Shown in pieces: positions 2,393 through 32,220 of a DNA stretch of 64,000 nucleotides (positions within the stretch are counted from its first letter, which is position 1; each line of letters opens with the position of its first letter). The stretch spans positions 1 to 64,000 of the forward strand of contig NZ_QMEA01000019.1 of assembly GCF_012912105.1 (NCBI RefSeq), given 5' to 3'. The position numbers and the translations under genes are program-made. The notes under the pieces were generated by a model. It ran no database searches, had not been told where the DNA came from, and saw only the letters and a list, made by a program, of their open reading frames with translations. The DNA is from Brasilonema sp. UFV-L1. Its GTDB lineage: Bacteria > Cyanobacteriota > Cyanobacteriia > Cyanobacteriales > Nostocaceae.

Positions 2393-3811
2393 CTAAGCCA
2401 AATGCGTAAACACTATTTTGAGTAAATCTGCACGAGTAAAAGGCTTAGTTAAATATCCAGAAGCTCCTACTAATCTTGCTTTTACTTTATCTACAAGTCC
2501 CTTGTTGCCTGTGACCATAATTATGGGAGTTTTTTTGAAAATTGAATTATTTCGGACAATTCGGCATAATTCATAACCATCCATACCATCCATATTCAAA
2601 TCTAGCAAAATCAAATCTGGTTTGTACCTAATAATTGACATAACTGCTTTGAGTGGGTCATTGATTGTGACTACAGAAAAATTTTCATCTTCTAAGAAGC
2701 GACTAATTTCTTTCAGGATAGTAGGACTATCATCAACGGAAATAATTTTGTAGACTTTTCGTGGAGTTATAGTAGGAGGAGTTTCTTGCTGATATTCAAA
2801 ATTGTTTTGATTTGGTGTTGTTAATTTTTGAGCTTCTTCTTTTCGAGGAGAAATCGGAGTTTTTTGCTGATGAATAACGACATGATTCGTAGAAGTCGTA
2901 GAGTTCTCTTGAGAAGTGGTGTGATTTGATGCTACTGTTGAATCAACGAATGTAGTCTCAACAGGTTTAGTCACATAACTAGAAGCTTGTACTAAATCTA
3001 TAAATGTCTTTGGTAACTGATCGAAGGGTGGATCTGGTTCATGTAATAATATAGTGCCATTTAAAATATGAGGGTATAACATTTTAGCCAGATGAACTTC
3101 GTCTTGATTCATAATCACTGACAAATGTCGTAAGCTAAAACCTTTCATCCACTCAGTTAACTGAGGATCTATGCCTGATATTGGTGCGGGATTTTTTGTG
3201 CCTTTTATTAATAAATAAGGCCGTTGATAAGGAGAAGAGATTTGGGGACCTAATGAATGCCAATTCTGCAACTTGTTTTGGCAACGTTCCACAATTTTTT
3301 CTACATCCAGCCTGCAAATCGTTGGAACTCGATAATGAGAATTATGTAATGTAAAAGTTCCTTGTTTGATTAAAAGATATGACTCTAGTACTTCTTTGAC
3401 TAATTCCTGAATCAGGATAGCTGCTTGTGTAGAATGCAAATATCGTTCGCTTACTAACCAGCAGATAGCTTGGTACTCAGGAGGTAGTGGGGGAGGAATT
3501 GATTGCTCGTGAGTATGATTGTGATATACTACTGATTGACTTTTTGTATCCGGTTCAAACATTAAACGTAACTGAACACGGACTTCACCGATGATGGTAG
3601 GAACATGATGGCTTAAGCGACGCAAATGACGTTCCAAACGGTCAAAAGGCTCAACTGAATGGGTTGCGTATGTTATCCTCCCCTGCTCTAGATAGATTGA
3701 CCAAGAAACAGAGTTGCTAAGTGCTTGTAAACAAGTACTTTCAGAAGAATGAGATAGGTGTCTCAATAAACTCAAAGGACGCAGTTTAGTAAATGTGCCA
3801 AAATTATTCAT
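2393..3811 (-). CDS. PatA-like response regulator (PATAN/DUF4388 plus REC)
   Basis: A 472-residue protein. The C-terminal 120 residues form a receiver domain: the acidic pair in SVDDSP (about residue 359), the phosphoacceptor Asp404 in LLDLNMDG, the switch Thr in MVTG and Lys456 in LTKPF are all present, so it should be phosphorylatable. The N-terminal half resembles the PATAN/DUF4388 domain of the PatA family (an early GRITYATHSVEP-like segment and helical WMKGFSLRHL-type segments). The linker (about residues 285-350) is rich in Thr, Ser, Gln and Asn. PatA of Anabaena affects heterocyst position; many paralogues act in phototaxis or have no known role, so I do not call this patA itself. No kinase or chemotaxis gene is adjacent; it appears to be an orphan regulator. 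The ATG at 3811 was chosen. Confidence 0.8.
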   Translation of the reverse strand: MNNFGTFTKLRPLSLLRHLSHSSESTCLQALSNSVSWSIYLEQGRITYATHSVEPFDRLERHLRRLSHHVPTIIGEVRVQLRLMFEPDTKSQSVVYHNHTHEQSIPPPLPPEYQAICWLVSERYLHSTQAAILIQELVKEVLESYLLIKQGTFTLHNSHYRVPTICRLDVEKIVERCQNKLQNWHSLGPQISSPYQRPYLLIKGTKNPAPISGIDPQLTEWMKGFSLRHLSVIMNQDEVHLAKMLYPHILNGTILLHEPDPPFDQLPKTFIDLVQASSYVTKPVETTFVDSTVASNHTTSQENSTTSTNHVVIHQQKTPISPRKEEAQKLTTPNQNNFEYQQETPPTITPRKVYKIISVDDSPTILKEISRFLEDENFSVVTINDPLKAVMSIIRYKPDLILLDLNMDGMDGYELCRIVRNNSIFKKTPIIMVTGNKGLVDKVKARLVGASGYLTKPFTRADLLKIVFTHLA

Positions 3812-4402
3812 TTCTCTAGAGATTTTCGGAAAAAAGAGACCGATTGTTTGAATTTTCGAGTGATCGGTAATAATGGTATTTCTTTAAGTTTGAGATTTCT
3901 CTATACAAAAATTTTCTCAGAATTTTGGTTGTATACATATATTACAATCTGTCAAGAAAATATTACAGGTAATCTGTCACATTTTCTCGTAACATAACAA
4001 ATAAGAGATATTTTTCAATTAATTTGAATTTTCATAAGTTAATTAAGGTAACAAACGTGTCGTTATATGACTGGGTTGAATAAACTCCACTTAGTTACTT
4101 TTATCTAAAATACGACCTTTCTACATCGAATCTTTAAATTTATGTGTCAGCAAAAGTACTACTCTATTAGAGAGTATACGTGTTATGTATAAAATTTACT
4201 ATAGATTGTCAAGGAGGTTATCCCGACTCTTTGTTGACTTAATTTTATATAAAGATATATCAGATAGGATCTCACAAATCTGTAAGGAATTTGGCAGCCG
4301 AGTTTTGTAGAAGAAATAGTAAACTATCTAAGATTAAATAACTTACAGATAGTTTTGTCGGTGCTAGAAACTATATACTTTGAGGAAAAGGAAAGCTGAG
4401 CT
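3812..4402. other. AT-rich spacer upstream of the TerY-P-like operon
   Basis: 591 bases between divergently transcribed genes, so promoters for both the response regulator and the VWA operon should lie here. No small ORF or RNA gene is evident. The final purine-rich stretch (4382-4395) is the ribosome binding site used by the next gene. Confidence 0.5.
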
Positions 4403-5104
4403 TTGGACTTTAACATAACACAAAAAGTTATGCCGGATACATTAAAACTTGATGAAGTCGTAGAGTTTGCTGAGAATCCAGAACCCCGTTGTCCATGTGT
4501 ACTTCTTCTGGATACATCTGGCTCAATGCAAGGTATGGCAGTAGATTCATTAAATCAAGGTTTGCAGAGTTTCAAAGAAGAATTAACGAAAAATTCCTTG
4601 GCTGCAAGGAGGGTTGAAGTAGCAATAGTTACTTTTGATAGTCATGTCAATATAGTACAAGACTTTGTAACTGCTGATCAATTCAATCCGCCGGTACTGA
4701 CAGCACAAGGACTAACGACTATGGGTGCTGGAATTCATAAAGCCTTGGACATGATCCAAGAACGAAAAGCTCAATATCGTGCCAACGGTATTGCTTACTA
4801 TCGTCCTTGGGTATTCATGATTACTGATGGTGAGCCACAAGGCGAGTTTGAAGATGTCGTCGAGCAAGCATCGCGGCGTCTACAAGAAGATGAAACAAGT
4901 AAACGTGTTGCATTTTTTACTGTTGGAGTTGAAAATGCAAATATGACGCGCTTGAGTCAAATAGCTGTACGTACACCCTTGAAACTTCAAGGACTCAATT
5001 TTGTGGAAATGTTTGTTTGGCTATCAGCCAGCATGTCAGCTGTTTCTCATTCTAAAGTCGATGAGCAGGTAGCACTACCACCGATTGGCTGGGGTTCTGT
5101 TTAG
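4403..5104 (+). CDS. TerY-like von Willebrand factor A domain protein
   Basis: A 233-residue protein that is essentially one VWA domain. The metal-binding MIDAS motif is intact: DTSGS with Asp37, Ser39 and Ser41, the Thr in GLTTMGAG, and the Asp in MITDGEP. It resembles TerY-type VWA proteins of tellurite/stress-response loci, which are thought to act as metal-dependent scaffolds. The likely start is the TTG at 4403, because a strong purine-rich ribosome binding site (GAGGAAAAGGAAAG, 4382-4395) sits just upstream; the first ATG at 4430 has none but would remove only nine residues. It is followed after 47 bases by a PP2C phosphatase gene and then a kinase gene, all on the same strand, which is the TerY-P triad arrangement. 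The family call is firm; the cellular role is inferred. Confidence 0.85.
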   Translation: MDFNITQKVMPDTLKLDEVVEFAENPEPRCPCVLLLDTSGSMQGMAVDSLNQGLQSFKEELTKNSLAARRVEVAIVTFDSHVNIVQDFVTADQFNPPVLTAQGLTTMGAGIHKALDMIQERKAQYRANGIAYYRPWVFMITDGEPQGEFEDVVEQASRRLQEDETSKRVAFFTVGVENANMTRLSQIAVRTPLKLQGLNFVEMFVWLSASMSAVSHSKVDEQVALPPIGWGSV

Positions 5105-5151
5105 TGATGTGATTGAATGCTCAAAAAAAGAGCAGTAACGGAATATGATTT

Positions 5152-5931
5152 ATGAACACTTCTAAACAGCAACCTCACTGGCGGGTGGTAGCCGCATCAA
5201 TATGTGGTACGAGCCACATAAAAAACAAGCAGTTGTGTCAGGATGCTCACCACTGGCACATTTTGCCAGATAATATTCTAGTTGTTGCAGCAGCAGATGG
5301 TGCTGGTAGTGCAAGCATGGGTAAGGTAGGAGCAATGATTGCTGTGGAAACAGCGATAGAAAATCTATCCATCAAAGAATTTTCTCGACGAACACTGGCA
5401 GATGATAATGCTGTGCGATCGCTTTTGATTGAAGCAATCATTTGTGCCAAAAAAGCTGTCGAAGAAGAAGCCCTTGCTTGCCAAAAGCAGTCATCGGATT
5501 TAGCAAGTACCTTAATTGTTGCCTTAGCAACACCAGAAGTTGTTGCGGTTGCACAAATCGGGGATGGTGTAGCAGTCGCAAGGGATGTTCAAGGGAACCT
5601 GATTGCGCTGACTATACCTGATAGTGGTGAATATATTAACGAAACAGTTTTTTTGACCTCACCCACAGCTCTAGATTCTTTACAAATGAATTTGTGGCGT
5701 CAAGCAGTCGTCAATGTCGGTGTTCTCACAGATGGACTACAAATGCTTGCCATGAATATGGCTGTGGGAGTCCCTCACAAACCTTTCTTTGCTCCACTCT
5801 TCGAGTTTGCAGCGAATGCAGATGACAAGACAGCAGCAAAAGAGCAGTTAGTGAGATTTTTACGCTCAGAGCGGATTATGCAACGTACAGATGATGATTT
5901 GACACTTATAATTGCTGCTTTAAGCAATTGA
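5152..5931 (+). CDS. PP2C-type serine/threonine phosphatase of TerY-P triad
   Basis: A 259-residue PPM/PP2C-like phosphatase. The metal-coordinating positions can be followed: Asp31 in CQDAHHW, Asp49-Gly50 in AAADGAGSAS, Asp138 in IGDGVAV, Asp194 in LTDGLQ and the late Asp run 247-249 before LTLIIAAL. It therefore looks catalytically competent, and it is close to the minimal domain size with no extra domain. It sits between the VWA gene and a kinase gene with short gaps (47 and 67 bases) and should be co-transcribed with them. In TerY-P loci the phosphatase is taken to oppose the linked kinase; this pairing is inference from gene order. An antisense reading frame inside it is treated as a shadow. 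Confidence 0.87.
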   Translation: MNTSKQQPHWRVVAASICGTSHIKNKQLCQDAHHWHILPDNILVVAAADGAGSASMGKVGAMIAVETAIENLSIKEFSRRTLADDNAVRSLLIEAIICAKKAVEEEALACQKQSSDLASTLIVALATPEVVAVAQIGDGVAVARDVQGNLIALTIPDSGEYINETVFLTSPTALDSLQMNLWRQAVVNVGVLTDGLQMLAMNMAVGVPHKPFFAPLFEFAANADDKTAAKEQLVRFLRSERIMQRTDDDLTLIIAALSN

Positions 5932-5998
5932 TAGAGTCTAGAGCGAAATTGTCTAGTGTGGAAGTGTATACATTGATAGGTGTCCCTAATAATATATC

Positions 5999-8185
5999 AT
6001 GCAGGTACTACGTTGTCTTCCCAATCAAAAAATTAGCAATGTCAGCCTCTCCGTAAGTTTGGGACGAGGCGGTGAAGCGTGTATATACACAGTGCCAACA
6101 GATGCTGGCTTAGTGGCTAAAGTATATCACAAGCCAACACCTGCCCAAGCTCGTAAACTAGAGGTTATGCTAACCCACCCGCCGGAAAACCCAACTGCGA
6201 GCTTGGGGCATATTTCTATAGCTTGGCCTGTTGAGTTGTTGCGATCGCCCGACGGAAGCGGTGAGGTGATAGGCTTTTTAATGCCACGCATTCAAGGAAT
6301 GCGTCCAATCATCGACTTCTACAATCCCAGAACTCGCCGCCAGCAGTGTCCTTTGTTCAACTATCAGTACTTAATCCGCACTGCTCGCAATCTTGCTTCA
6401 GCTTTTGCCGCATTACACGAGCGCGGATACTGTGTCGGCGATGTGAATGAGTCTAACATCCTTGTTAGTGACATGGCATTAGTAACAATCGTAGACACCG
6501 ATTCGTTCCAGGTAAAAGATCCAGACAATGGAATTATTTACCGCTGTCATGTCGGGAAACCAGAATTTACCCCACCAGAACTTCATAACAAAACTTTTGC
6601 TCAGTGCGATCGCAATTCTACCCATGACTTGTTTGGGTTAGCAGTCTTGATATTTCAACTGTTAATGGAAGGAACACACCCATTTTCAGGCATTTATCAA
6701 GGAGCTGGTGAACCTCCGCCATATGAAGCGCGTATTGTCGCAGGACATTTTACCTACAGTCAAAAGCGCCGCGTACCCTACGTTCCGACACCGATTGCAC
6801 CTCCTTGGGACATTCTTCCTCTAGGTTTGCAAGAACTATTCATACGTTGTTTTGAGGATAGTCACAACAACCCGCAGATACGCCCGAGTGCTCAAACTTG
6901 GCTCACAGCACTCGCTGATGCTGAAAATAGCCTCATCAGCTGCACTGTCAACCCTCAGCATCGCTATAGCAACCACCTAGATAAATGTCCTTGGTGTGAA
7001 CGTACATTGCGATTAGGTGGACGTGATCCATTTCCTTCTCTCAAAGCTATAGCAAATAAAGAACATTTACAACCGCGAGTCCAAAAGAAAAGACGCCAAA
7101 CCCAAGTTCCTCGTACGCTACAACCAGTAACTCCATCGACTCGCACTCATTATCGTCATCACATTCCCCAAAATGTCCCCTACTATAGACCTCAGAAAAA
7201 GCGAAATTTTTACCCGATTGTTTTCTGCATAGTTGGTCTTTTTAGTATATTGGGGTATTTGGATTTAATGGTGAAATTCACAAGTCGCCCCTTTATTGCT
7301 CAAAGTCCTTACGCTCAACAAAATTTGCTTTCTTCACAAGAGGATAAAAACTCCAAAAATCAAAATTTTGCTGATTACTACAAACAAGGTCATGCTTCAT
7401 ACAAAATCAGAGATTACGCACAAGCAATTGAAAATTTCACTCAAGCAATAGAAAAAGAGCCAAAACATGCAAAAGCTTATGTCAACCGTGGCAATGCTCG
7501 CTACAACTTGAAAGAGTATGAAGCAGCACTTGCAGATTACAATAAAGCAATTAGCATCAATCCCAAAGAAGTGAAAGCGTATGTCAATCGAGGGAATGCC
7601 CACAATTTGCTTGCCGAATATAGCAGCGATCCAGATAAAGAGTATAGTCTAGCCATTGCCGATTATAACCGTGCTCTAAGTCTTAATTCCAAGGAAGTAG
7701 AAGCATACATAAGACGAGGTGTTGTTCGTGCTAAAATTGCTAAATACAGTGGCGATTCTCAAAATGAATATCAAAAAGCGATCGCTGACTTCAACCAAGC
7801 ACTCACTCTGAATTCATCCAGAGCAGAAGCCTTCTTTGAACGAGGTTTGACGCGTTATCAAATTGCTCAATATAGCAATGATTTTGAACAAGAATATAAA
7901 CAAGCAATTGCGGACTTTAACCAAGCATTGAATATCAATCCTAAACTGCCAAAAGTTTATATAAAACGAGCTGTCATACGATATGAACTTGCTCAATATG
8001 GAGGTGGTAAATTTAGCCAGTACCATAAGCAAGCAGTTGATGATTTGCAAAAAGCTGCCAAAATCTCTTTGGAACAAGAAGATATGGAGAATTACCAACA
8101 AGCATTAAGCAGCATTTGTGTTGTTGTAGAAAACAAATGTGATACTTTTTTACAAACCACAAATGGAACACCGCAAAGCAACTAA
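5999..8185 (+). CDS. Protein kinase with zinc-ribbon, membrane segment and TPR repeats
   Basis: A 728-residue multidomain protein. Residues 20-300 are a kinase-like domain: glycine loop LGRGGEA (21-27), Lys41 in VAKVY, catalytic-loop Asp148 and Asn153 in VGDVNESNIL, and metal-binding Asp166/Asp168 in VDTDSF. The usual HRD and DFG motifs are thus changed to VGD and DTD, but the key acidic residues remain. Cys315, His321 or His326, Cys330 and Cys333 (CPWC) form a probable zinc-binding knuckle, as described for kinases of TerY-P loci. A basic linker (about 350-402) leads to one membrane helix (about 403-424). Residues 457-700 are TPR repeats of the YKQGHA/AIADFNQAL type, several with inserted acidic-aromatic spacers (SGDSQNEYQ and similar). 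It is the last gene of the triad. Kinase activity is likely but not proven. Confidence 0.85.
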   Translation: MQVLRCLPNQKISNVSLSVSLGRGGEACIYTVPTDAGLVAKVYHKPTPAQARKLEVMLTHPPENPTASLGHISIAWPVELLRSPDGSGEVIGFLMPRIQGMRPIIDFYNPRTRRQQCPLFNYQYLIRTARNLASAFAALHERGYCVGDVNESNILVSDMALVTIVDTDSFQVKDPDNGIIYRCHVGKPEFTPPELHNKTFAQCDRNSTHDLFGLAVLIFQLLMEGTHPFSGIYQGAGEPPPYEARIVAGHFTYSQKRRVPYVPTPIAPPWDILPLGLQELFIRCFEDSHNNPQIRPSAQTWLTALADAENSLISCTVNPQHRYSNHLDKCPWCERTLRLGGRDPFPSLKAIANKEHLQPRVQKKRRQTQVPRTLQPVTPSTRTHYRHHIPQNVPYYRPQKKRNFYPIVFCIVGLFSILGYLDLMVKFTSRPFIAQSPYAQQNLLSSQEDKNSKNQNFADYYKQGHASYKIRDYAQAIENFTQAIEKEPKHAKAYVNRGNARYNLKEYEAALADYNKAISINPKEVKAYVNRGNAHNLLAEYSSDPDKEYSLAIADYNRALSLNSKEVEAYIRRGVVRAKIAKYSGDSQNEYQKAIADFNQALTLNSSRAEAFFERGLTRYQIAQYSNDFEQEYKQAIADFNQALNINPKLPKVYIKRAVIRYELAQYGGGKFSQYHKQAVDDLQKAAKISLEQEDMENYQQALSSICVVVENKCDTFLQTTNGTPQSN

Positions 8186-9139: not shown

Positions 9140-9913
9140 ATGAAAGCAGTGATTTTGGCTGGAGGTCTTGGTACACGTATAAGTGAAGAAACGAGCATCA
9201 AACCCAAGCCTATGGTGGAGATTGGTGGAAAGCCGATACTATGGCATATTATGAAAATTTATTCCACCCACGGCATTAATGAATTCATTATCTGCTGCGG
9301 TTATAAAGGTTACGTCATTAAGGAGTATTTTGCCAACTACTTCTTGCATATGTCAGACGTAACCTTTGATATGCGATTTAACCAGATGAATGTGCATGCA
9401 GGTAAAGCAGAACCTTGGCGTGTCACCTTAGTAGATACAGGTGACAATACAATGACTGGTGGACGCTTGAAGCGAGTCAGAGAACATATTGGTAATGAAA
9501 CTTTTTGCTTCACCTACGGTGATGGCGTCAGTAACGTCAATATTACCGAGTTAATTAATTTTCATCAACAACAAAATACTTTAGCAACAATGACGGCTGT
9601 TCAACCACCAGGACGTTTTGGTGCTATTGTCTTAGGACAAGAACAAACAAAAATTACTAGCTTTCGGGAAAAGCCTGAAGGGGATGGAGCTTGGATTAAT
9701 GGTGGTTATTTTGTGTTAGAGCCAGAAGTCATCAATCTGATTAATGATGATACCACTGTTTGGGAACAGACACCATTAGAAAAGCTGGCAGAAATGGAAC
9801 AGCTATCTGCTTACAAGCATCAAGGATTTTGGCAACCAATGGATACTTTACGAGATAAAAATTATCTCGAAGATTTGTGGAAGAATAATAAGGCTCCTTG
9901 GAAAGCATGGTGA
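9140..9913 (+). CDS. rfbF: Glucose-1-phosphate cytidylyltransferase
   Basis: A 257-residue nucleotidyltransferase. The N-terminus AGGLGTRI with [18 protein letters not shown] is the signature of sugar-phosphate nucleotidyltransferases, and the length, together with [11 protein letters not shown] and the [11 protein letters not shown] segment, fits RfbF, which makes CDP-glucose from CTP and glucose-1-phosphate for deoxysugar synthesis. It opens the 21-kb plus-strand cluster; from memory, an RfbF homologue also heads the heterocyst envelope polysaccharide (HEP) island of Anabaena PCC 7120. A dedicated CDP-glucose 4,6-dehydratase (RfbG) is not evident nearby, so the epimerase gene at 12477 may take that step or it is encoded elsewhere. 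The ATG start is clear. Confidence 0.9.
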
Positions 9914-10011: not shown

Positions 10012-11229
10012 ATGTATGACTTCGCTATCATAGGTGGAGGAATTGTTGGTCTTTCCACCGGTATGGCTTTAGGTAAACGCTATCCTAATGCTCGTATTCT
10101 CGTTTTAGAAAAAGAGAGCAATTGGGCATTTCACCAAACTGGTAACAATAGTGGCGTCATTCATTCTGGTATCTACTACAAGCCGGGTAGTTTCAAAGCC
10201 AAATTTTGCCGTGACGGTTGTCGTTCAATGGTGGAATTTTGCCAAGAACATGGAATTGAGCATGAAGTTTGCGGTAAAGTCATAGTTGCTACTGATGAGA
10301 CAGAGTTACCTCGTCTAGAAAATCTTTACACGCGAGGTTTGGAAAATGGCATTGATGTTAAGAGAATGACTCCAGAGGAAGTCAAAGAAGTTGAACCTCA
10401 TGTGAGTTCTGTCGGAGGAATTCTCGTTACTTCAACTGGTATTGCAAATTACAAGCAAGTTTGCTACAAATATGCTGAAATTATCAGACAGCAGGGAGGA
10501 GAACTGCGTCTCAATACCAAGGTTGAAAAAATAGTCACCAGTGGGAAACATCAGGTATTAGAAACAAACAAGGGTAGTTTTGAAACTCGGTTTGTGATCA
10601 ATTGTGCCGGATTACATAGCGATCGCGTTGCCAAAATGGGCAAAACTGATCCAAAAGCAAAAATTGTTCCTTTCCGGGGAGAGTATTACGAACTGACACC
10701 AGAAAAACGCTATTTGGTGAAAGGTTTGATTTACCCAGTTCCTAATCCAGATTTTCCCTTCTTGGGTGTCCATTTTACACGGATGATTGACAAGACTGTA
10801 CACGCTGGACCAAATGCAGTCTTGAGCCTCAAGCGCGAAGGCTATAACAAAACAGACTTTGATTTGCGTGATTTTGCAGAAGTTATGACCTACCCTGGTT
10901 TTTGGAAACTTGCGGCAAAACACGCTGATGAAGGAATTCAAGAAATCATTCGCTCATTCAGTAAAGCAGCTTTCACCAGAAGTTTGCAAAAACTCATTCC
11001 CGAAGTTCAACAACAAGACTTAGTTCCCACCCACGCTGGTGTTCGCGCACAAGCACTCATGAATGATGGTAAGTTGGTGGATGACTTTTTGATTGTTCAA
11101 GGTCAAAACTCTGTTCATGTTTGTAATGCCCCTTCCCCAGCTGCAACATCTTCTATAGAAATAGGTAAAGCAATTGTTGACCAACTTCCTGAACAGTCAC
11201 ATCTCAAAGCTGTAGTCAGTCAACACTAG
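10012..11229 (+). CDS. lhgO: L-2-hydroxyglutarate oxidase (LhgO family)
   Basis: A 405-residue FAD-dependent enzyme of the DAO superfamily. The N-terminal IIGGGIVGLSTG (about residues 5-16) binds FAD, and NNSGVIHSGIYY (about 46-57) is a hallmark of LhgO/YgaF proteins, which oxidise L-2-hydroxyglutarate to 2-oxoglutarate. Length and the C-terminal NAPSPAATSSIEIG segment agree. An SD-like AGGAG precedes the ATG. Its place between sugar-nucleotide genes is odd for a housekeeping repair enzyme; either it is a passenger or a paralogue acting on a sugar-acid intermediate of the polysaccharide. I favour the family call and leave the substrate open. Confidence 0.82.
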   Translation: MYDFAIIGGGIVGLSTGMALGKRYPNARILVLEKESNWAFHQTGNNSGVIHSGIYYKPGSFKAKFCRDGCRSMVEFCQEHGIEHEVCGKVIVATDETELPRLENLYTRGLENGIDVKRMTPEEVKEVEPHVSSVGGILVTSTGIANYKQVCYKYAEIIRQQGGELRLNTKVEKIVTSGKHQVLETNKGSFETRFVINCAGLHSDRVAKMGKTDPKAKIVPFRGEYYELTPEKRYLVKGLIYPVPNPDFPFLGVHFTRMIDKTVHAGPNAVLSLKREGYNKTDFDLRDFAEVMTYPGFWKLAAKHADEGIQEIIRSFSKAAFTRSLQKLIPEVQQQDLVPTHAGVRAQALMNDGKLVDDFLIVQGQNSVHVCNAPSPAATSSIEIGKAIVDQLPEQSHLKAVVSQH

Positions 11230-12296: not shown

Positions 12297-12476
12297 AAAT
12301 GTTGTGTTACTGTGCATAGCATAATATATCAAAGGTAAGTAAAGCGATAATTTGTACACGAAAAAATATCTTATAAATTAGAGCAAAAAAACCACCTGAT
12401 ATAGAGTTATGCATTGTAACTCACTAATGTTATTCATTGGCAACACGAAATTAAACTTCAATAGGAATTGAAATCA

Positions 12477-13502
12477 ATGAAAGTTCTAGTCACTGGTACT
12501 GAAGGTTATCTTGGTAGTTTGTTACCTCCGTTGTTAATCGAACGAGGACATGAAGTTATCGGAGTAGACACTGGTTTTTATAAAGCAGGTTGGTTATACA
12601 ACGGTACTCAAGTCACAGCGAAAACTCTCAACAAAGATATTCGCAATATCACCTTAGAAGATTTGCAAGGTGTTGATGCTGTAGTTCACATGGCGGAACT
12701 GTCAAATGATCCTACAGGACAACTTGCACCTAACATCACTTACGACATTAATCATAAAGGCTCAGTTCGTCTTGCCGAATTGGCAAAAAAAGCTGGTGTG
12801 CGTCGCTTTGTCTATATGTCTTCATGTAGTGTCTATGGTGTTGCGACTGAAGGTGATGTCACAGAAGAATCTGCTGTCAATCCTCAAACCGCCTACGCAG
12901 AATGCAAAACATTAGTAGAGCGAGATGTCAAGCCATTAGCAGATGATGACTTTTCTCCTACCTTTATGCGGAACGCCACAGCTTTTGGTGCTTCCCCCAG
13001 AATGCGCTTTGATATTGTTTTGAATAATTTGGCTGGCTTAGCATGGACAACCAAAGAAATCAAGATGACTAGTGATGGTACGCCTTGGCGTCCATTAGTT
13101 CATGCGCTGGATATTTGCAAAGCAATTGTTTGCACAGTAGAAGCTCCTCGTGATATCGTACACAACCAAATTTTTAACGTAGGAGATACAGCAAATAATT
13201 ATCGAGTCAAAGAAGTTGCCGAAATTATTGCTCAAGTTTTCCCAGACTGCAAATTAAGCTTTGGTACCCAAGGCGCAGACAATCGTAGTTATCGGGTTTC
13301 TTTTGAGAAAATTAACACCGTTCTACCCGGCTTTAAGTGTGATTGGAATGCTCAACGTGGAGCGCAACAGTTGTATGATTTGTTCTCGCAAATTGATATG
13401 ACTGAAGAAATTTTCTTGCATAGAGGCTTCACTCGCTTAAAGCAATTAGAATATCTCATCCGTACACAACAAATTGACAAAGATTTCTTCTGGAGTAAGT
13501 AA
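12477..13502 (+). CDS. NAD-dependent epimerase/dehydratase
   Basis: A 341-residue extended short-chain dehydrogenase. The Rossmann motif VTGTEGYLG sits at residues 4-12, the catalytic Ser in MSSCSVYG, and the Tyr/Lys pair in YAECK, all complete, so an active nucleotide-sugar epimerase or dehydratase is expected. The frame is open to a TTG at 12468, but the ATG at 12477 has AGGA (12463-12466) at normal distance and begins MKVLVTG as relatives do, so I start there. In the cluster it probably modifies the sugar nucleotide made by RfbF (epimerisation or 4,6-dehydration). The substrate is inferred from context only. Confidence 0.85.
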   Translation: MKVLVTGTEGYLGSLLPPLLIERGHEVIGVDTGFYKAGWLYNGTQVTAKTLNKDIRNITLEDLQGVDAVVHMAELSNDPTGQLAPNITYDINHKGSVRLAELAKKAGVRRFVYMSSCSVYGVATEGDVTEESAVNPQTAYAECKTLVERDVKPLADDDFSPTFMRNATAFGASPRMRFDIVLNNLAGLAWTTKEIKMTSDGTPWRPLVHALDICKAIVCTVEAPRDIVHNQIFNVGDTANNYRVKEVAEIIAQVFPDCKLSFGTQGADNRSYRVSFEKINTVLPGFKCDWNAQRGAQQLYDLFSQIDMTEEIFLHRGFTRLKQLEYLIRTQQIDKDFFWSK

Positions 13503-13727: not shown

Positions 13728-14630
13728 ATGACTAACTTACTCACAATTGCCATCCCGACGTATAATCGTGCCCAGTTATTAGATAATCAACTGGCGTGGC
13801 TTTTTCGAGCCATTAAAGGTTTTGAATCTGTATGTGAAATCATAGTTTCAGACAATTGTTCAACCGATGATACGCCAAAGGTAGTTGAAAAATGGCAATC
13901 AATTTTTAGCAATACAACTTTTAACTACAAGAGAAATCCTGAAAATATTGGCGCTGTCAGAAATATTGCTTCTTGTATAAAGGCTGCTAATAGTAAGTAT
14001 GTTTGGACAATCAGCGATGATGACAAAATATTCGACAACAGCATAGCCTACATTGTGAACACCCTAACTCAACATTCAAACTTAGGATTAATCATTTTAA
14101 ATTTTTCCAAAAGTAATGCCAAGACAGGTGAAGTCTTTGAGCAGCGATGCTTTGATGTAGAGCATGATGAAGTCAGTTCCAATGGAAAAGCTGTGTTTGA
14201 ACGTTGTCTGGAGCAAAGTACTGGTGGTGTAGGGTTGACAACCGCATTAGTGTACCGAACAGATTTGGCACAGCGTGCTATTGATAATTGGGTTGAAGGT
14301 TTAAGTAACTTAGCTGTTCAAATATATTGGACTGCTTTTTGTGCTTATCATGGTGATACCTTAGTGACTAAAGACAACTACCTAGAATGTGTTGCTGGCA
14401 CTCATTATTTCATGCAAAACCCCAAGCTCTTAGTCACCCTAGAATATGCAGATATACCCGAAATTATGGTCAAACTGAGAGATATAGGATACCCCAATGA
14501 TTTTAGTAGAAAAATGCTTTACATATGCTTGAAGAAGTTTAACTGGAGGGTTCTTTTAGGAGCTTTCAGAAGATGGCCTTTGGTAGCTGTTAAAGCATTC
14601 TCTCGATACGTGAGTTATGCGTATTCCTAG
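13728..14630 (+). CDS. Glycosyltransferase family 2, tandem copy 1
   Basis: A 300-residue GT2-type inverting glycosyltransferase. It begins LLTIAIPTYNRAQ, has the acidic IVSDNCSTDD nucleotide-binding segment and the metal-binding ISDDDK (in place of the more common GDDDP of its two neighbours), and ends with a basic W-R-V-LLGAFRRWP stretch that may touch the membrane. It is the first of three homologous genes in a row (13728-17173); overall the three proteins are colinear with the same domain ends. It differs from the other two by a longer fusion of its last codons into sequence that is noncoding after copy 2. Donor and acceptor sugars are unknown. Confidence 0.85.
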   Translation: MTNLLTIAIPTYNRAQLLDNQLAWLFRAIKGFESVCEIIVSDNCSTDDTPKVVEKWQSIFSNTTFNYKRNPENIGAVRNIASCIKAANSKYVWTISDDDKIFDNSIAYIVNTLTQHSNLGLIILNFSKSNAKTGEVFEQRCFDVEHDEVSSNGKAVFERCLEQSTGGVGLTTALVYRTDLAQRAIDNWVEGLSNLAVQIYWTAFCAYHGDTLVTKDNYLECVAGTHYFMQNPKLLVTLEYADIPEIMVKLRDIGYPNDFSRKMLYICLKKFNWRVLLGAFRRWPLVAVKAFSRYVSYAYS

Positions 14631-14660
14631 AGGACTGGTACATTAGTCAGGCATTGCGGT

Positions 14661-14729
14661 AAAAAACCTGGTTTCTGTTGTCGAAAAGACTAATTTTTCG
14701 TTTCGCCACCCTAAAGAAACCGGGTTTTT
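14661..14729 (+). terminator. Hairpin AAAACCTGGTTTCT/AGAAACCGGGTTTTT
   Basis: The left arm (14661-14676) and right arm (14715-14729) pair over about 15 bases with one G-T or mismatch position, and the right arm ends in five T. This CCGGTTTCT type of inverted repeat is frequent after cyanobacterial genes and could stop transcription in either direction. It begins 31 bases after GT2 copy 1. Confidence 0.45.
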
Positions 14730-14846
14730 GCGATTACTGTACCGGCGCTCTAGACTGCTTTGAAAATAAGACAGAGGACAGAAGGCAGAAGCAAAGAATA
14801 ACTATTTTCATTGTTCCTTGTGAGCGTAACTCATGGATTTCTTGGG

Positions 14847-14943
14847 TATTCATCTCATTTTATAATCACACCTTCGCTGACTCAAATCAAAAGCAATTCA
14901 TAGTGAAATATGTAAAAGCCAGAGCAACTCCATCCATATGAAA
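14847..14943 (+). repeat. Duplicated GT2 spacer segment, copy A
   Basis: About 97 bases starting TATTCATCTCATTTT that can be aligned with 16040-16137 (for example CACACCTTCGCT-ACTCAAAT in both). It lies upstream of GT2 copy 2 as the partner lies upstream of copy 3, and marks the unit of tandem gene duplication. Confidence 0.7.
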
Positions 14944-15062
14944 CATCAGGAATTCATTATCTTCTGCTAACCTTCACAAAACTAAAAGGCAGATTGATAT
15001 TACTTAATTATCTCCCAACATTATGATGACAAAATACCCTTTTTCTTTAAGCTAACTGAGAT

Positions 15063-15995
15063 ATGACGAGATTACTGACAATTGCTATTCCCACCTATAA
15101 TCGAGCAACCTTTCTAGAACAACAACTGACGTGGTTAGCTAAAGCAATAGAGGGTTTTGAGTCTGAATGCGAGGTTTTGATTTGCGATAACTGTTCAACA
15201 GACAACACTCAGGAAATTGTCAAAAAATGGCAATCTGTTTTCCAAAATACCACATTTAAATCGCATCGAAACAGCAATAACATTGGTTTAATGAGAAATC
15301 TGGCTTATTGTCTGAAGTCAGCAACAAGTAAATATGTTTGGGTGATTGGCGATGATGATCCTATTCATGAACTCGCTCTTGCGTATGTCATAACTAATCT
15401 GAAACAGCACGAGGATTTAGCATTATTACTTCTTAATTTCTCCTGGCTTTATGTACTGACTGGTGAGTTAGCTCATGAACGTTGGTTTGTGGTTGAGAAT
15501 GACGAAATCTGTACTGATGGCAAAACATTAATTGAAAATTCTTTGCAAGACAGATTTAGCGGTTTGGCATTCATGACTGCTCAAGTTTACCGAACACAAG
15601 CAGCACAACAAGCTCTGCAAAAGTGGGAGCAGAGTGCAAATAACAGAGAAGGACAAGTTTATTGGACTGCGTATTGCGCCCTTCAAGGAAGTGTAAAAAT
15701 TTCTAAAGATGTTTATGTTCAATATGCTTGTGGAATGAATTCTACACAAGCAGATCCAAAACTATGGTTCAAGATGCGTTATTCTGATTTACCCGAAGTC
15801 TATATAAAACTGATGGAAATTGGATACAACCAAAAACTTTGCAAAGAATTTATATTTAAACACTTTGCAGAAACAAATTGGAGAACTATCGTAGGAGCAC
15901 TCAGGCGATGGCCACTGTATACAATCAACATATTTGTACCATATTTGGGTATGGTCAGCTCATCTGTTTGGAAAACTCTCCCTCGGACTAAGTAA
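15063..15995 (+). CDS. Glycosyltransferase family 2, tandem copy 2
   Basis: A 310-residue GT2 protein, paralogue of the genes on either side. LLTIAIPTYNRAT opens the GT-A domain, LICDNCSTDN binds the nucleotide and IGDDDP is the metal-binding DxD. The middle segment (LLLLNFSWLYVLTGE, then VYRTQAAQQAL and VYWTAYCA) matches the other two copies, as does the C-terminal GALRRWP. The ATG has only a weak ribosome binding site. A role in adding a sugar to the envelope polysaccharide is inferred from its place in the cluster; the tandem copies may have taken on different donor or linkage specificity. Confidence 0.85.
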   Translation: MTRLLTIAIPTYNRATFLEQQLTWLAKAIEGFESECEVLICDNCSTDNTQEIVKKWQSVFQNTTFKSHRNSNNIGLMRNLAYCLKSATSKYVWVIGDDDPIHELALAYVITNLKQHEDLALLLLNFSWLYVLTGELAHERWFVVENDEICTDGKTLIENSLQDRFSGLAFMTAQVYRTQAAQQALQKWEQSANNREGQVYWTAYCALQGSVKISKDVYVQYACGMNSTQADPKLWFKMRYSDLPEVYIKLMEIGYNQKLCKEFIFKHFAETNWRTIVGALRRWPLYTINIFVPYLGMVSSSVWKTLPRTK

Positions 15996-16039
15996 TAATA
16001 TATTGATACCTGAGTTATGTGTGTTGCCGCATTCTTAAG

Positions 16040-16137
16040 TATTCATCTCATTTTCTTATCACACCTTCGCTCACTCAAATCGAAAGCGACTGATAATGAC
16101 ATATGCAAAATCCCCAAGAACTCAATCCACATCAGAG
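16040..16137 (+). repeat. Duplicated GT2 spacer segment, copy B
   Basis: Counterpart of 14847-14943. Its last third lies inside the frame upstream of the proposed ATG of GT2 copy 3; the matching sequence before copy 2 is noncoding, which argues that it is noncoding here as well. Confidence 0.7.
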
Positions 16138-16159
16138 ACAAACTGATGTACAGTCCACC

Positions 16160-17173
16160 ATGAAGAAACTACTCACTATCGCCATTCCAACTTACAACCG
16201 CGCACAGCGACTTGATAAGCAACTGGCATGGGTTGCTCAAGCTATCATTGGCTTTGAATCGGAATGTGAAATTTTTGTTTCAGATAATTGTTCAACTGAC
16301 AATACTCAAGAAATCATTAAGAAATGGCAAAAAAATCTCAGTCAGTTCACATTTAAATCTAGCAGAAATTCCGAAAATCTAGGTGTCATGCGGAATATCA
16401 TTCATTGTTTGAAGTCCGCAACGACCAAATATGTTTGGACAATTGGTGATGATGATCCTATTCAGGATAGAGCAATCGCTTACGTCATCAATAAACTTAA
16501 ACAATATGAAGATTTATCTTTATTGTTCCTTAATTTTTCCGGTCGTCACCAAATCACTGGAGAACCCGTACATCCGCCTACAATAGTTGGTAACCGTTGG
16601 TTTGATGTTGATACTGAAGATGGAAGTGGTGACGCAAAAGCGATATTTGAACATTGTTTTTCAAAAAGCATTGGCGCAGTCATCTTTCTGACAGCTTCGG
16701 TATACCGTACTGATTTGGTACAACGCGCTCTTCAAATTTGGTCAGAAGCTGAGAATAACTGGATATCTTTAGCATATTTAGCTGGGTATTGCGCTGCTAA
16801 TGGTAGGATAATTGTGACTAAAGATACCTACATGGAATGTATTGTTGGTGTGAGTTATTGGCAAAAAGAGCCAAAATCAGCACTGTTAATGCAATACAAG
16901 CACTTGCCTGAAGTTATAACGAAACTGGAGGAAAACGGATACTCTAAACAATTCTACCGCCGGATGATTTTCCAGAGTTTCAAAGAAGCGAATTTGAAAG
17001 TTTTCTTAGGTGCTTTGAGAAGATGGCCTGTGTGTACTGTTCGGACAATCGTTCCCTTTTTGACTTCAGTCACTCTCTGTGCTTTTGACACAGGAGGTGC
17101 TACTAAAGAATTCAAAATGGCACAAACAACGGAATCTTCTACTCAAGACTTACGAAAATACGACTTGCAATGA
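16160..17173 (+). CDS. Glycosyltransferase family 2, tandem copy 3
   Basis: The third paralogue, 337 residues from the chosen start. Motifs are LLTIAIPTYNRAQ, FVSDNCSTDN and IGDDDP. The frame is open upstream to an ATG at 16103, but I start at the ATG at 16160 (MKKLLTIAIP) for two reasons: copies 1 and 2 begin at the same place (MTNLLTIAIP, MTRLLTIAIP), and the 57 bases between the two ATGs belong to a duplicated spacer that is noncoding before copy 2. Compared with the others it has a small insertion (VHPPTIVGN) after the RHQITGEP segment and a longer, polar C-terminal tail after the RRWP motif. It is followed after 25 bases by the PhyH-like gene. Confidence 0.83.
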   Translation: MKKLLTIAIPTYNRAQRLDKQLAWVAQAIIGFESECEIFVSDNCSTDNTQEIIKKWQKNLSQFTFKSSRNSENLGVMRNIIHCLKSATTKYVWTIGDDDPIQDRAIAYVINKLKQYEDLSLLFLNFSGRHQITGEPVHPPTIVGNRWFDVDTEDGSGDAKAIFEHCFSKSIGAVIFLTASVYRTDLVQRALQIWSEAENNWISLAYLAGYCAANGRIIVTKDTYMECIVGVSYWQKEPKSALLMQYKHLPEVITKLEENGYSKQFYRRMIFQSFKEANLKVFLGALRRWPVCTVRTIVPFLTSVTLCAFDTGGATKEFKMAQTTESSTQDLRKYDLQ

Positions 17174-17198
17174 ATGAAACGAACAAGGAAATTATTTT

Positions 17199-18050
17199 AT
17201 GTTTAACAGTACTATCAACAAAATATCTGAGTTGAAATCCGAGTTAGGTCACAAAGCAGCACTTCTAAACCATGCCAGAAAATTGCCTGCTTTGGAAGCG
17301 AGCGATCGCCTGATTGTCGATCATCTCAAACGCGATGGTGTTTATGTCACAACACTCGAAAAGTTAGGACTTGGCTCTACATCTGATCTTCTTAAAGCAT
17401 CTTACAATCAACTGTCTAGAATGACAGATGCAAACAATAGCCACCTCACGAAAAGACTGCCACAAATTTATACAGTCACAGATTTCCCAGAATTTTCTCA
17501 ATGGGGACAAGAACAAAAGCTACTGAACATCGCGGAAAATTATATTGGTCTTCCTGTTACCTTTCAGGGCGTACATTTACGTAAAGATTTTCCGAACGAA
17601 AATCAGTTTGGAACACTGCTGTGGCATAAAGACTCAGAAGACCGTCGGATGGTCAAAATCATCATTTATTTGTCCGATGTCGAAGAAAAACACGGTCCTT
17701 TTGAATACGTTCCGCTATCTTTGACTCCTTTACACAGTCTCAATTATTACCGGATATACTATAAGCTTTGGAAATCAGGCTACTTAGGAATCACTGATGA
17801 ACAGCTCAAGGAAGTTATCCCAGAACACAAATGGAAATCATGTCCAGGACCAGCAGGTACCGTGATTTTTACAGATCCAAAAATTGCTTTACACCACGGA
17901 ACCTTACGGTCAGAAGACAGATCAGCACTATTTTACGTTTACACCGCAAATCCACCGAAGCGCCCAGAACTTTGTACCCAGTACTGGGATGATACTTTTG
18001 CCAAACCAGAACCATATCAAGAAGCGAATTCTGTAACAGTCTTCAGATAG
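17199..18050 (+). CDS. Phytanoyl-CoA dioxygenase (PhyH) family protein
   Basis: A 283-residue protein with the layout of non-haem Fe(II)/2-oxoglutarate oxygenases. The HxD pair is His143 and Asp145 in WHKDSED, the distal histidine lies in ALHHGTLRSEDRSALFY, and the arginine of the same segment would hold 2-oxoglutarate. The ATG follows a good AAGGAAA site, 25 bases after GT2 copy 3, so the two are probably cotranscribed. In polysaccharide clusters such enzymes hydroxylate or otherwise oxidise a sugar or a lipid; which applies here cannot be seen. Confidence 0.75.
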   Translation: MFNSTINKISELKSELGHKAALLNHARKLPALEASDRLIVDHLKRDGVYVTTLEKLGLGSTSDLLKASYNQLSRMTDANNSHLTKRLPQIYTVTDFPEFSQWGQEQKLLNIAENYIGLPVTFQGVHLRKDFPNENQFGTLLWHKDSEDRRMVKIIIYLSDVEEKHGPFEYVPLSLTPLHSLNYYRIYYKLWKSGYLGITDEQLKEVIPEHKWKSCPGPAGTVIFTDPKIALHHGTLRSEDRSALFYVYTANPPKRPELCTQYWDDTFAKPEPYQEANSVTVFR

Positions 18051-18203
18051 TCGGATTGTCTAGTTGAAGAATTTGTTTGTGTTCTTCTCTGATTGAAGTC
18101 GCTACGCTTCTATGCGACTTCTTAAAGATTTGATGAAGAGCACGAAGGCAATCAGAAATGATTGACTCTTACTATGTAGTCAGAATTTATAGCGAGGTTA
18201 CCC

Positions 18204-18755
18204 ATGATTTTTACTGAAACCGAACTCAAAGACGCGTACATCATTGACTTAGAACAGAAGCAAGACCATCGTGGTTTCTTTGCCCGTACTTTCTGCGCTA
18301 AAGAGTTTGAGGCACATGGTTTAAAGCCAACGGTTGCCCAATGTAATCTATCTTTTAACTACAAAAAAGGAACGCTGCGGGGAATGCATTACCAAATTCT
18401 ACCAGCAGCAGAAACGAAATTAATTCGCTGTACTCAAGGCGCGATCTATGACGTGATTATTGATATGCGTCCCGAATCTCCGACTTACCTTCAACATATC
18501 GGTGTGGAATTAACAGCCGAAAACCATCGCGCTTTATATGTTCCAGAAATGTTCGCCCACGGCTATCAAACACTGACAGAATCTGCTGAAGTTGCTTATC
18601 AGGTAGGAGAATTTTACACACCAGGATATGAGCGGGGATTGCGCTATGATGATCCATTTTTCAATATTCAATGGCCCATAGATGTGACTGAAATCTCTGA
18701 AAAAGATAAGAATTGGCCTTTGATGAAAATGATGACTGTTGGAGGAAATGTTTAG
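18204..18755 (+). CDS. rfbC: dTDP-4-dehydrorhamnose 3,5-epimerase family protein
   Basis: A 183-residue cupin-type epimerase of normal family length. RGFFARTFC near the start, the catalytic His62 in RGMHYQ, and the tyrosine-containing YQVGEFYTPGYERGL near the end are the family marks. RfbC epimerises C3 and C5 of a 4-keto-6-deoxyhexose nucleotide. With RfbF (CDP-glucose) at the head of the cluster, the substrate may be a CDP-linked keto sugar and not dTDP; this is inference. The ATG start and the GAGGTTA site agree. Confidence 0.88.
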   Translation: MIFTETELKDAYIIDLEQKQDHRGFFARTFCAKEFEAHGLKPTVAQCNLSFNYKKGTLRGMHYQILPAAETKLIRCTQGAIYDVIIDMRPESPTYLQHIGVELTAENHRALYVPEMFAHGYQTLTESAEVAYQVGEFYTPGYERGLRYDDPFFNIQWPIDVTEISEKDKNWPLMKMMTVGGNV

Positions 18756-18951: not shown

Positions 18952-20262
18952 ATGATTATTGTAGATCGCGCCTTACAAGCTCGTGCCGAAGCAGGTAACC
19001 CCATCAAAGTTGGGATGATCGGTGCTGGCTTTATGGGACGGGGAATTGCAAATCAAATTAAGAATTCAGTTCCTGGTATGGAGTTAGTTGCTATTTCCAA
19101 CCGCAGTATTGATGCAGCCAAGCGAGCATACTCAGAAGCAGGTATTGAAGATAGCAAAGTCGTTTCCAACGTCACTGAATTAGAAGACGCGATCGCCCAC
19201 AATCAATACGCAGTCACAGAAGATGCAATGTTACTGTGTCGCGCCGAAGGAATTGATGCTCTGATTGAAGTCACAGGCGCAGTAGAATTTGGTGCTCATG
19301 TCGTGATGGAGGCGATCGCCCATCACAAGCACGTCATCATGATGAACGCTGAATTGGATGGTACTATCGGTCCCATTCTCAAAGTTTACGCCGACAAAGC
19401 AGGAGTTATTCTCACCGCTTGTGATGGAGATCAGCCAGGAGTGCAATTGAATCTCTATCGTTTTGTTAAAAGTATCGGTCTGACTCCGCTGTTATGTGGT
19501 AATATCAAAGGCTTACAAGACCCTTATCGCAATCCGACAACACAAGAAGCATTTGCTAAACGCTGGGGTCAAAAAGCTCACATGGTCACCAGTTTTGCTG
19601 ATGGAACAAAGATATCGTTTGAGCAGGCGATCGTTGCTAACGCCACAGGTATGCAAGTTGCTAAGCGAGGAATGCTGGGATACGACTTTAGAGGTCATGT
19701 CGATGAAATGACCAACATGTACGACGTTGAACAACTCAAGGAACTAGGCGGTATCGTTGATTATGTCGTTGGTGCAAAACCAGGTCCAGGGGTCTTTGTC
19801 TTTGGAACTCACGACGATCCTAAGCAACGTCACTACCTCAACTTGTACAAGTTAGGTGAAGGTCCACTTTACAGCTTTTACACTCCTTACCACCTCTGTC
19901 ACTTTGAGGTACCATTGTCTGTTGCTCGCGTTGTCCTCTTCCAAGATGACATCTTAAGTCCTTTAGGTGGTCCTTTGGTCGATGTAATCACCACCGCCAA
20001 AATTGACCTCAAAGCTGGAGAAAGCTTGGATGGTATCGGATATTACATGACATACGGTCAGTGTGAAAATTCTCCGATTGTTCAACAGCAAAACCTCTTG
20101 CCCATAGGTTTAGCAGAAGGATGTCGCCTGAAACGAGATATTCCAAAAGACCAAGTTTTAACCTACGATGATGTAGAATTGCCTGAAGGTAGACTGTGCG
20201 ACAAACTGCGAACTGAGCAGAACGCTTATTTCAGCCAATCCAAAACATTAGCCGCAGTTTAG
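18952..20262 (+). CDS. NAD(P)-dependent dehydrogenase with C-terminal SAF domain
   Basis: A 436-residue protein. The N-terminus binds NAD(P) through GMIGAGFMGRGIANQI (about residues 21-36), with a homoserine-dehydrogenase-like or DRL-type body (ALIEVTGAVEFGAHV, MMNAELDGTIGPIL, TACDGDQPGVQLNL). The last 80 residues (GLAEGCRLKRDIPKDQVLTYDDV) form a SAF domain like those of sialic-acid synthases and FlgA. Such proteins recur in cyanobacterial and proteobacterial exopolysaccharide loci beside rfbC, where they probably reduce or rearrange a keto sugar nucleotide. A strong AGGAG ribosome binding site precedes the ATG. The precise reaction is not established to my knowledge. Confidence 0.8.
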   Translation: MIIVDRALQARAEAGNPIKVGMIGAGFMGRGIANQIKNSVPGMELVAISNRSIDAAKRAYSEAGIEDSKVVSNVTELEDAIAHNQYAVTEDAMLLCRAEGIDALIEVTGAVEFGAHVVMEAIAHHKHVIMMNAELDGTIGPILKVYADKAGVILTACDGDQPGVQLNLYRFVKSIGLTPLLCGNIKGLQDPYRNPTTQEAFAKRWGQKAHMVTSFADGTKISFEQAIVANATGMQVAKRGMLGYDFRGHVDEMTNMYDVEQLKELGGIVDYVVGAKPGPGVFVFGTHDDPKQRHYLNLYKLGEGPLYSFYTPYHLCHFEVPLSVARVVLFQDDILSPLGGPLVDVITTAKIDLKAGESLDGIGYYMTYGQCENSPIVQQQNLLPIGLAEGCRLKRDIPKDQVLTYDDVELPEGRLCDKLRTEQNAYFSQSKTLAAV

Positions 20263-32144: not shown

Positions 32145-32220
32145 AAGAAACCTTTTCTAGCTGTAATATAATTTACAATATTGGATTCTATAAAGAACCC
32201 AATATTTCATTCTGGTTGTG

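Follow-up and report, generated by a model that had tools for sequence, protein, structure and literature searches.

A TerY-P-like VWA, phosphatase and kinase gene triad at the head of the heterocyst envelope polysaccharide island of Brasilonema and related cyanobacteria

Introduction

Three co-directional genes of the cyanobacterium Brasilonema sp. UFV-L1, encoding a VWA protein, a PP2C phosphatase and a kinase-like protein, raise the question of whether such a set stands alone or belongs to a larger system, and what it does there. They lie in a stretch of 64,000 nucleotides (contig NZ_QMEA01000019.1, positions 1 to 64,000 of the forward strand), which was analysed as a whole and is called the window below. 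An initial annotation, made from the sequence without database searches, had described them as a TerY-P-like triad that seemed free-standing and might be tied to stress or antiphage signalling. We find that the triad stands at the head of the heterocyst envelope polysaccharide (HEP) island, and we consider it probable that it constitutes a reversible Ser/Thr phospho-switch, of the TerY-P/YegL-PphC-YegI type, which acts as the regulatory front end of that island.

TerY-P triads, as summarised in PMC11090510 from Anantharaman et al. (2012), consist of a TerY-like VWA protein, a PP2C-like phosphatase and a Ser/Thr kinase with a C-terminal zinc-binding element, and antiphage activity has been reported for TerY-P-like modules (Gao et al. 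2020, cited in PMC11090510 and PMC7699616). In Escherichia coli, YegI is reported to be membrane-bound and to autophosphorylate on serine, and PphC to dephosphorylate YegI; according to PMC13232886, the source for both, a condition promoting expression of this module has yet to be defined. A list of kinases with autophosphorylation in the activation loop also includes YegI (excerpt of PMC12189002).

Identity and Active Sites of the Triad

The open reading frames (ORFs) extend over positions 4403-5104, 5152-5931 and 5999-8185, all on the plus strand, and the intervals of 47 and 67 bases are as the initial annotation had given them. Their products, named here also by the corresponding genes of Anabaena PCC 7120, are:

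4430 to 5104, plus strand: TerY/YegL-like VWA protein, orthologue of alr2822 (ORF open from TTG 4403)
5152 to 5931, plus strand: PP2C_2 Ser/Thr phosphatase, PphC-like, orthologue of alr2823 by position (Pfam, alignment to the E. coli protein, residues)
5999 to 8185, plus strand: YegI-like Ser/Thr kinase with knuckle, predicted transmembrane helix and TPRs, orthologue of alr2824 by position

Pfam identified VWA in the first ORF (9.6e-14) and PP2C_2 in the second (1.1e-54), while for the third the Pkinase model gave 3.4e-6 and 27.1 bits, below its cut-off of 31.7, together with many TPR models; no NCBIfam model reached its own cut-off for any of the three. Two results settle the weak Pkinase call: the product is 38% identical to E. 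coli K-12 YegI over about 320 amino acids (E 3e-64), a stretch covering kinase domain and CPWC knuckle, and its predicted structure aligns with experimentally determined kinase structures (see below). The VWA protein is 54% identical to YegL (E 8e-76) and the phosphatase 37% identical to PphC (E 5e-39). The TerY-P-like make-up first proposed from the translations is thus borne out by profiles and relatives alike.

Residue conservation was assessed in a named set, the best 80 of 344 relatives in the GTDB collection (Brasilonema, Scytonema, Fischerella, Calothrix, Nostoc and others), with complete ORFs only counted for VWA protein and kinase. The metal ion-dependent adhesion site (MIDAS) of the VWA protein, D28-S30-S32-T96-D133 counted from ATG 4430, is retained in all 79 complete proteins, and the catalytic K41/D148/N153/D166 of the kinase in 79/79. 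Of the acidic, metal-binding residues of the phosphatase, D138/D194/D249 are present in 80/80 loci and D49 in 79, locus L195 being cut by its contig start. Kinase and VWA protein are single-copy in the Brasilonema genome, where PP2C_2 has five more, weaker matches.

Architecture of the Kinase

The kinase carries two parts, a transmembrane helix and a TPR domain, that were absent from the initial annotation, and it is built up as follows:

5999 to 6937, plus strand: kinase domain, amino acids 1-313 (AlphaFold model; Z 20.5 to PknB, 5u94)
6941 to 6997, plus strand: Cys/His knuckle C315-H321-C330-C333
7205 to 7282, plus strand: predicted single transmembrane helix, amino acids 403-428 (hydropathy scan)
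7367 to 8074, plus strand: TPR domain, amino acids 457-692, probably periplasmic, a topology that is itself predicted (Pfam, model, structural alignment)

The Cys/His set, a putative zinc-binding element, follows directly on the kinase domain in 79/79 complete named kinases. A single hydrophobic helix was found in 54/55 kinases of the family sample described below (scanned beyond amino acid 200; in L155 none exceeded the threshold), and Pfam detects the TPR domain in 32/33 members of the kinase alignment. The AlphaFold model (mac1e6544b45f; mean predicted local distance difference test score, pLDDT, 75.2; predicted template-modelling score 0.48) consists of a kinase fold and a TPR solenoid. 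Its kinase part aligned to PknB over 251 residues with a root-mean-square deviation of 3.7 Å, and its TPR part to the TPR domain of OGT (1w3b) with Z 25.5 and 1.7 over 222 residues, a match that tells the fold only because repeat folds reach high Z easily. The combination of transmembrane helix and TPRs suggests an envelope-facing receptor.

The C-terminal part differs between kinase families: TPRs occur in the window's family and in f3, a WD40 propeller ends the f4 kinase (L162:6989-9319, the exception in the alignment above), and the f6 kinases (L163, L164, L165, L068) show several predicted transmembrane helices.

The Triad Heads the HEP Island

A Pfam scan of 33 ORFs, a part of those in the window, together with equivalog models, defined the surroundings of the triad. 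The domain DUF4388 of the upstream neighbour is the one that we take to be named PATAN.

2393 to 3811, minus strand: PATAN(DUF4388)-receiver response regulator, divergent upstream neighbour (DUF4388 6.5e-19, Response_reg 5.5e-27)
9140 to 9913, plus strand: glucose-1-phosphate cytidylyltransferase (rfbF), first HEP enzyme gene, alr2825 position (TIGR02623, 476.1 bits, cut-off 300.25)
10012 to 11229, plus strand: LhgO-type FAD oxidoreductase, alr2826 position (profile matches)
12468 to 13502, plus strand: epimerase/dehydratase, alr2827 position (Pfam Epimerase)
18204 to 18755, plus strand: rfbC/rmlC, alr2830 position (TIGR01221 above cut-off)
18952 to 20262, plus strand: DRL-type NAD(P) oxidoreductase, alr2831 position (Pfam DRL_cat, 1.5e-54)
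23694 to 25928, plus strand: Wzz/polysaccharide tyrosine autokinase, alr2833 position (TIGR01007 above cut-off)
27535 to 28413, plus strand: HepC (NF045514 HepC equivalog, 343.7 bits, cut-off 140)
28598 to 30466, plus strand: HepA ABC transporter (NF045513 HepA equivalog, 961.6 bits, cut-off 725)

Glycosyltransferases also occur downstream (Pfam), and all the island genes listed, from rfbF through HepC and HepA, run in the direction of the triad. The cluster downstream is the HEP island and the triad stands at its head; gene order and identities agree with those of the island in Anabaena PCC 7120 (alr2822/alr2825-alr2841). The suggestion that the triad is free-standing must accordingly be given up. 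In 77 of the 80 named loci, too, rfbF lies downstream.

Shortly past HepA, mreB-mreC lie on the minus strand (31326-33264), and further on there are two tandem AMIN-Amidase_3 cell-wall amidases (39253-41319 and 42124-44136), an arrangement known from amiC genes of Nostocales.

Conservation of the Linkage

The family sampled is, by our reading of the genus names of its loci, the heterocystous group. A kinase-knuckle protein was detected in 144/145 family genomes (139/139 of good quality), the best copies being 67-95% identical to that of the window. In the sole exception, G082 (88% complete), only 488 bases separate rfbF from the start of its contig, which makes an assembly gap likely, with the triad probably just off the contig; loss of the triad from this small genome as a sign of heterocyst dependence was rejected on the same ground. 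Outside the family the kinase is patchy, with matches in 61/194 genomes phylum-wide at E <= 1e-10.

Fifty-five family loci, one for most genera, were fetched, and the triad is complete in every one of them, in one order and on one strand; the three genes do therefore keep together in relatives, as the TerY-P proposal had required. The gene rfbF lies within the fetched stretch in 50/55. In G127 its separation from the triad is only apparent, with rfbF following about 6.7 kb further downstream in the same orientation, and the stretches of G034 and G097 stop at or near contig ends. In the small genomes G013 and G062, rfbF is within about 0.3 kb of the kinase end. Matches to GT2 glycosyltransferases were left out of the neighbour tally of these loci as too general.

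Among the 80 named loci the VWA gene was found in 79 and phosphatase and kinase in all, and rfbF is invariably on the kinase strand, with the oxidoreductase ahead of it in L217. The three loci in which rfbF was missed (L178, L182, L237) are 4-kb contigs, and the locus without a VWA gene, L195, begins within the phosphatase gene. The PATAN regulator is upstream in 71/80 named and 51/55 family loci.

As a control for general collinearity, the share of other loci that hold a homologue was determined per 1-kb bin for those 64 of the 80 named loci in which the full 21 kb were available. Bins between -4 and +9 kb have a mean share of 0.60-1.00, and the +10 kb bin one of 0.50. To the left the mean is 0.07 in the -5 kb bin and 0.05-0.26 between -7 and -10 kb, the exception being the -6 kb bin (0.41, median 0.67).

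Anabaena PCC 7120 Tags and Published Expression

A FurC-box sequence is listed 286 nt before the alr2822 ATG (excerpt of PMC10406281). In the 36-kb locus of genome G385 this 19-base sequence has a single occurrence, where it precedes the VWA ATG by exactly 286 bases; that ATG sits 27 nt inside the VWA ORF and is equivalent to window position 4430. G385, not necessarily PCC 7120 itself, carries the published PCC 7120 hetC promoter with one mismatch, and its gene order (hetC, hetP, ..., PATAN, VWA, PP2C, kinase, rfbF, oxidoreductase, epimerase, ..., rfbC, DRL, glycosyltransferase, Wzz) agrees with alr2817-alr2833 as tabulated in PMC4390870. From the box spacing and the gene order it follows that alr2822 is the VWA gene, and by position alr2823 would be the phosphatase and alr2824 the kinase. 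All three are tabulated as 'hypothetical protein' (PMC4390870), and their identity as VWA protein, phosphatase and kinase is added by the present analysis.

The PCC 7120-type hetC promoter is carried by G380, G382, G383 and G385. The hetC regions of G382, G383 and G385 were fetched. A general link between hetC and HEP was rejected, as those of G382 and G383 have no triad within about 27 kb, VWA gene and rfbF lying together elsewhere.

With the tags assigned, published expression data can be brought to bear. When a sigC mutant was examined 8 h into nitrogen step-down, alr2822, alr2823 and alr2824 were lower by log2 1.48, 1.58 and 2.24, and in the same table alr2825-alr2839 and alr2841 were lower by 1.0 to 1.9; in a sigE mutant the three genes were lower by log2 1.42, 1.60 and 1.93, alongside most of the HEP island (PMC4390870). 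In the available text of PMC7065334 the HEP island is termed alr2822-alr2841 and is 2 to 3.5-fold down in a cse mutant, a passage of PMC10406281 labels alr2822 'hep island protein', and NtcA is reported to bind some genes of the hep island (excerpt of PMC3898017). The hep genes of A. variabilis are reported to be 7- to 25-fold down in mature heterocysts (excerpt of PMC4046671), which fits a developmental window and is not used as evidence here. The available parts of PMC10811720, PMC12507012, PMC4046671, PMC4365693 and PMC2821919 hold nothing on alr2822-alr2824. Gene neighbourhood and expression data together point towards HEP synthesis or export as what the triad controls.

Kinase Tree and History

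In a tree of 62 kinases, the 19 main-copy kinases of the family form one clade (support 100/99), which includes L126, L140 and L145 from loci without rfbF in the fetched stretch. The triad is a family-wide, vertically inherited module. Next to the clade stand kinases of families f3, f4 and f6; f3 as the nearest relative is weakly supported (96/67), and long branches meet elsewhere in the tree. In f3 (L161:5252-6170) PATAN regulator, phosphatase and kinase are kept, with no VWA ORF between PATAN and phosphatase genes.

The patchy second copies of some family genomes fall into a separate clade with other accessory copies (100/99). Most of these accessory copies (L077-L096, L103-L107) have VWA and phosphatase genes adjoining, and their kinases, about 38-44% identical, have varied C-termini. 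In L078 the VWA protein touches the TerY model of the PADLOC defence collection and the kinase a HEAT-repeat defence model. These copies are possibly accessory or defence triads.

Comparison with Related Systems

The E. coli YegL-PphC(YegK)-YegI set shares with the window the three families, their relative order, the C-terminal CPWC knuckle of the kinase and its membrane location. It differs in having yegJ between pphC and yegI (strain K-12), in the end of YegI, which consists of other regions where the window kinase has one transmembrane helix and TPRs, and in its surroundings, since it adjoins mdtABCD and does not lie inside a polysaccharide cluster. The YegI end is, we presume, a helix-hairpin-helix region. 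As a separate observation, yegI-pphC-yegL of K-12 (L007:1-2244, 14040-18129) lie about 12-16 kb from wza-wzb-wzc, which we take to be the genes of colanic-acid capsule export; this polysaccharide neighbour is possibly due to chance.

With TerY-P triads in the broad sense, the triad shares a VWA protein with MIDAS, a clustered PP2C and a kinase with a C-terminal Cys/His set. It differs in that it is linked to HEP genes, that no nuclease, restriction or CoCoNuT genes occur among the scanned window neighbours, those downstream being polysaccharide genes, and that TerD is missing from the whole Brasilonema genome. An association with ter or tellurite genes is frequent in such triads without being obligatory. 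The initial annotation had reported no other ter genes; this stands for TerD, TerB and TerC not having been searched.

The antiphage system of Gao et al. has the general domain set in common with the triad, and its kinase carries an OB-fold (according to the consulted section of PMC11090510). For the window kinase, Pfam gives TPRs and no OB-fold, and the model has no strand past amino acid 264, residues 314-451 being of low confidence. None of the PADLOC defence models matched the VWA protein or phosphatase at E <= 0.1, the TerY model (PDLC02224) included, which we assume to stand for the system of Gao et al. and which is narrow: E. coli YegL is unmatched at 0.01, and one paralogous VWA protein, that of L078, is touched (E 0.0019). 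Weak matches of the window kinase to PADLOC kinase models of PD-T4-6, mads and MkoA systems are accounted for by the kinase fold in general.

Leader of the VWA Gene

Two conserved elements precede or overlap the VWA start:

4368 to 4383, plus strand: conserved AAACTATATACTTTGA element, a presumptive promoter -10-like sequence or operator
4414 to 4432, plus strand: inverted repeat CATAAC-N7-GTTATG over the VWA ATG, conserved in relatives

Translation may start at ATG 4430 rather than at TTG 4403; both codons are widely retained (TTG codon 1 in 72/78 loci, ATG in 76/78), and the published alr2822 start fits the ATG. The AAACTATATACTTTGA element occurs within 3 substitutions in 64/78 loci, 53 of these copies ending 18-19 nt ahead of the TTG, as against 15/1560 mononucleotide shuffles, and no second copy was found in the window allowing 2 substitutions. 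The six-pair stem of the inverted repeat is complete, G-U allowed, in 71/78 related loci and could be an operator or a start-codon hairpin. Since the leader sequences are related, conservation of these elements alone is no proof of function, and a promoter and terminator scan gave no clear excess over shuffles.

A Membrane Phospho-Switch for the Heterocyst Coat?

The interpretation of the triad as a phospho-switch controlling the HEP island builds on the gene identities, intact active sites, family-wide linkage and single clade established here, and on published work for the co-regulation with the island (PCC 7120) and for the YegI/PphC chemistry (E. coli). Beyond this we infer a role in HEP formation, a topology, targets and a part for the VWA protein, which together would give the following mechanism. 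The kinase would be anchored in the plasma membrane, its kinase domain and zinc knuckle facing the cytosol, and its TPR domain would lie on the outer side and read an envelope partner there. Besides autophosphorylating, the kinase would act on cytosolic targets in the synthesis or export of the coat; the Wzz/tyrosine autokinase, HepC, HepA and the PATAN-receiver regulator are candidates. PP2C would reset the kinase, and given the homology to YegI and PphC the two should form the same kinase-phosphatase pair. The Mg-binding VWA protein, which with its invariant MIDAS would make a natural adaptor, might dock kinase and PP2C or present the substrate. A more specific version, which we consider possible but less likely than not, is a membrane switch dedicated to the coat locus, in which the periplasmic TPR receptor reads the growing coat and the TerY-P set gates both synthesis and export.

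It is also conceivable, though in our estimate unlikely, that the triad is a general cyanobacterial envelope or stress phospho-switch that merely sits beside the HEP island, with transcription partly in common and no action on HEP. The operon gap, the rearranged loci, the pheT-like gene and the orthologues without island enzymes, described next, speak for this reading and weigh against a regulatory role. The gap between kinase and rfbF has a median of 485 bases (131-2038), far exceeding the 33 and 57 within the triad, so that the triad looks like a short operon of its own. In 2/55 family loci about 25-36 kb separate the triad from rfbF and the two are oppositely oriented, yet the triad is intact. 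The left edge of the conserved block at the PATAN gene is marked, not absolute: a gene that is pheT-like by the look of its start, with no evident role in HEP, lies about 6 kb upstream in 45/64 full loci (e.g., L239:3553-5970), and part of the linkage of triad and island may therefore be inheritance without function. The named set, moreover, is rich in Nostoc. None of the island enzymes searched was found near orthologues with at least 6 kb visible downstream (L161 of f3; L068, L164 and L165 of f6; L069-L073 of f2), the flanks of L162 (f4) and L163 (f6) being uninformative as their stretches end within 0.6 kb of the kinase; the module thus appears older than the HEP link, and was probably recruited to the HEP locus in or before the ancestor of the family. 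Further points weigh against the main reading. In the sigC mutant ntcA and hetP also fall, direct and indirect control being inseparable according to the authors (PMC4390870), so that the co-regulation of triad and island may be indirect. One definition of the HEP island, in the text available from PMC4390870, begins at alr2825 and excludes the triad, FurC binding to the alr2822 promoter was absent in an electrophoretic mobility shift assay (excerpt of PMC10406281), and the open-licence literature searched yielded no mutant phenotype for alr2822-alr2824. As to the protein itself, the TPR topology derives from hydropathy and flanking charge only, and residues 314-451 of the kinase model, comprising knuckle and linker, mostly have pLDDT under 50. 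Against a mere neighbour stand the persistence of rfbF downstream of the triad while most genes to the left of the PATAN gene are shuffled, and the published co-regulation in three mutants, sigC, sigE and cse.

We regard it as improbable that the switch serves coats other than that of heterocysts as well, namely the HEP-type coats of akinetes or the polysaccharide of hormogonia. The hep genes are used in akinete envelopes, and the two small genomes mentioned above keep rfbF close to the kinase; akinete or hormogonium expression data were not found. A stand-alone antiphage TerY-P system, for which the reported activity of TerY-P-like modules and the weak kinase matches might speak, is hardly credible and was rejected, given a kinase that is single-copy in the Brasilonema genome, near-universal in the family and of one clade, polysaccharide genes in place of nucleases downstream, and the PADLOC result, narrow as the TerY profile is; the stress and antiphage hint of the initial annotation finds no support.

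Significance

Both the TerY-P/YegI kind of module and the HEP locus were known; what appears to be new is their combination, a TerY-P switch with a transmembrane-TPR kinase as a standing part of the coat locus, and no earlier account of such a switch in a heterocyst-coat locus was found in the accessible portions of the open-licence literature searched. A precedent for this class of enzymes in heterocyst envelope formation is given by PrpJ (all1731), a PP2C, and HstK-type kinases, which are other genes than those of the triad and affect the glycolipid layer (as excerpted from PMC6161253). TerY-P/YegI modules have few known physiological roles, and the member described here is tied to one structure, the HEP coat, which helps to protect nitrogenase against oxygen, and this in a group of organisms open to genetic work. 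Three 'hypothetical' genes of the classic HEP locus thereby gain a concrete, testable candidate function, which suggests a layer of phosphorylation in heterocyst maturation apart from PrpJ and HepK. Were the coat-reading switch outlined above to be real, a module that is elsewhere associated with stress and phage conflict would have been put to developmental use in one cell type.

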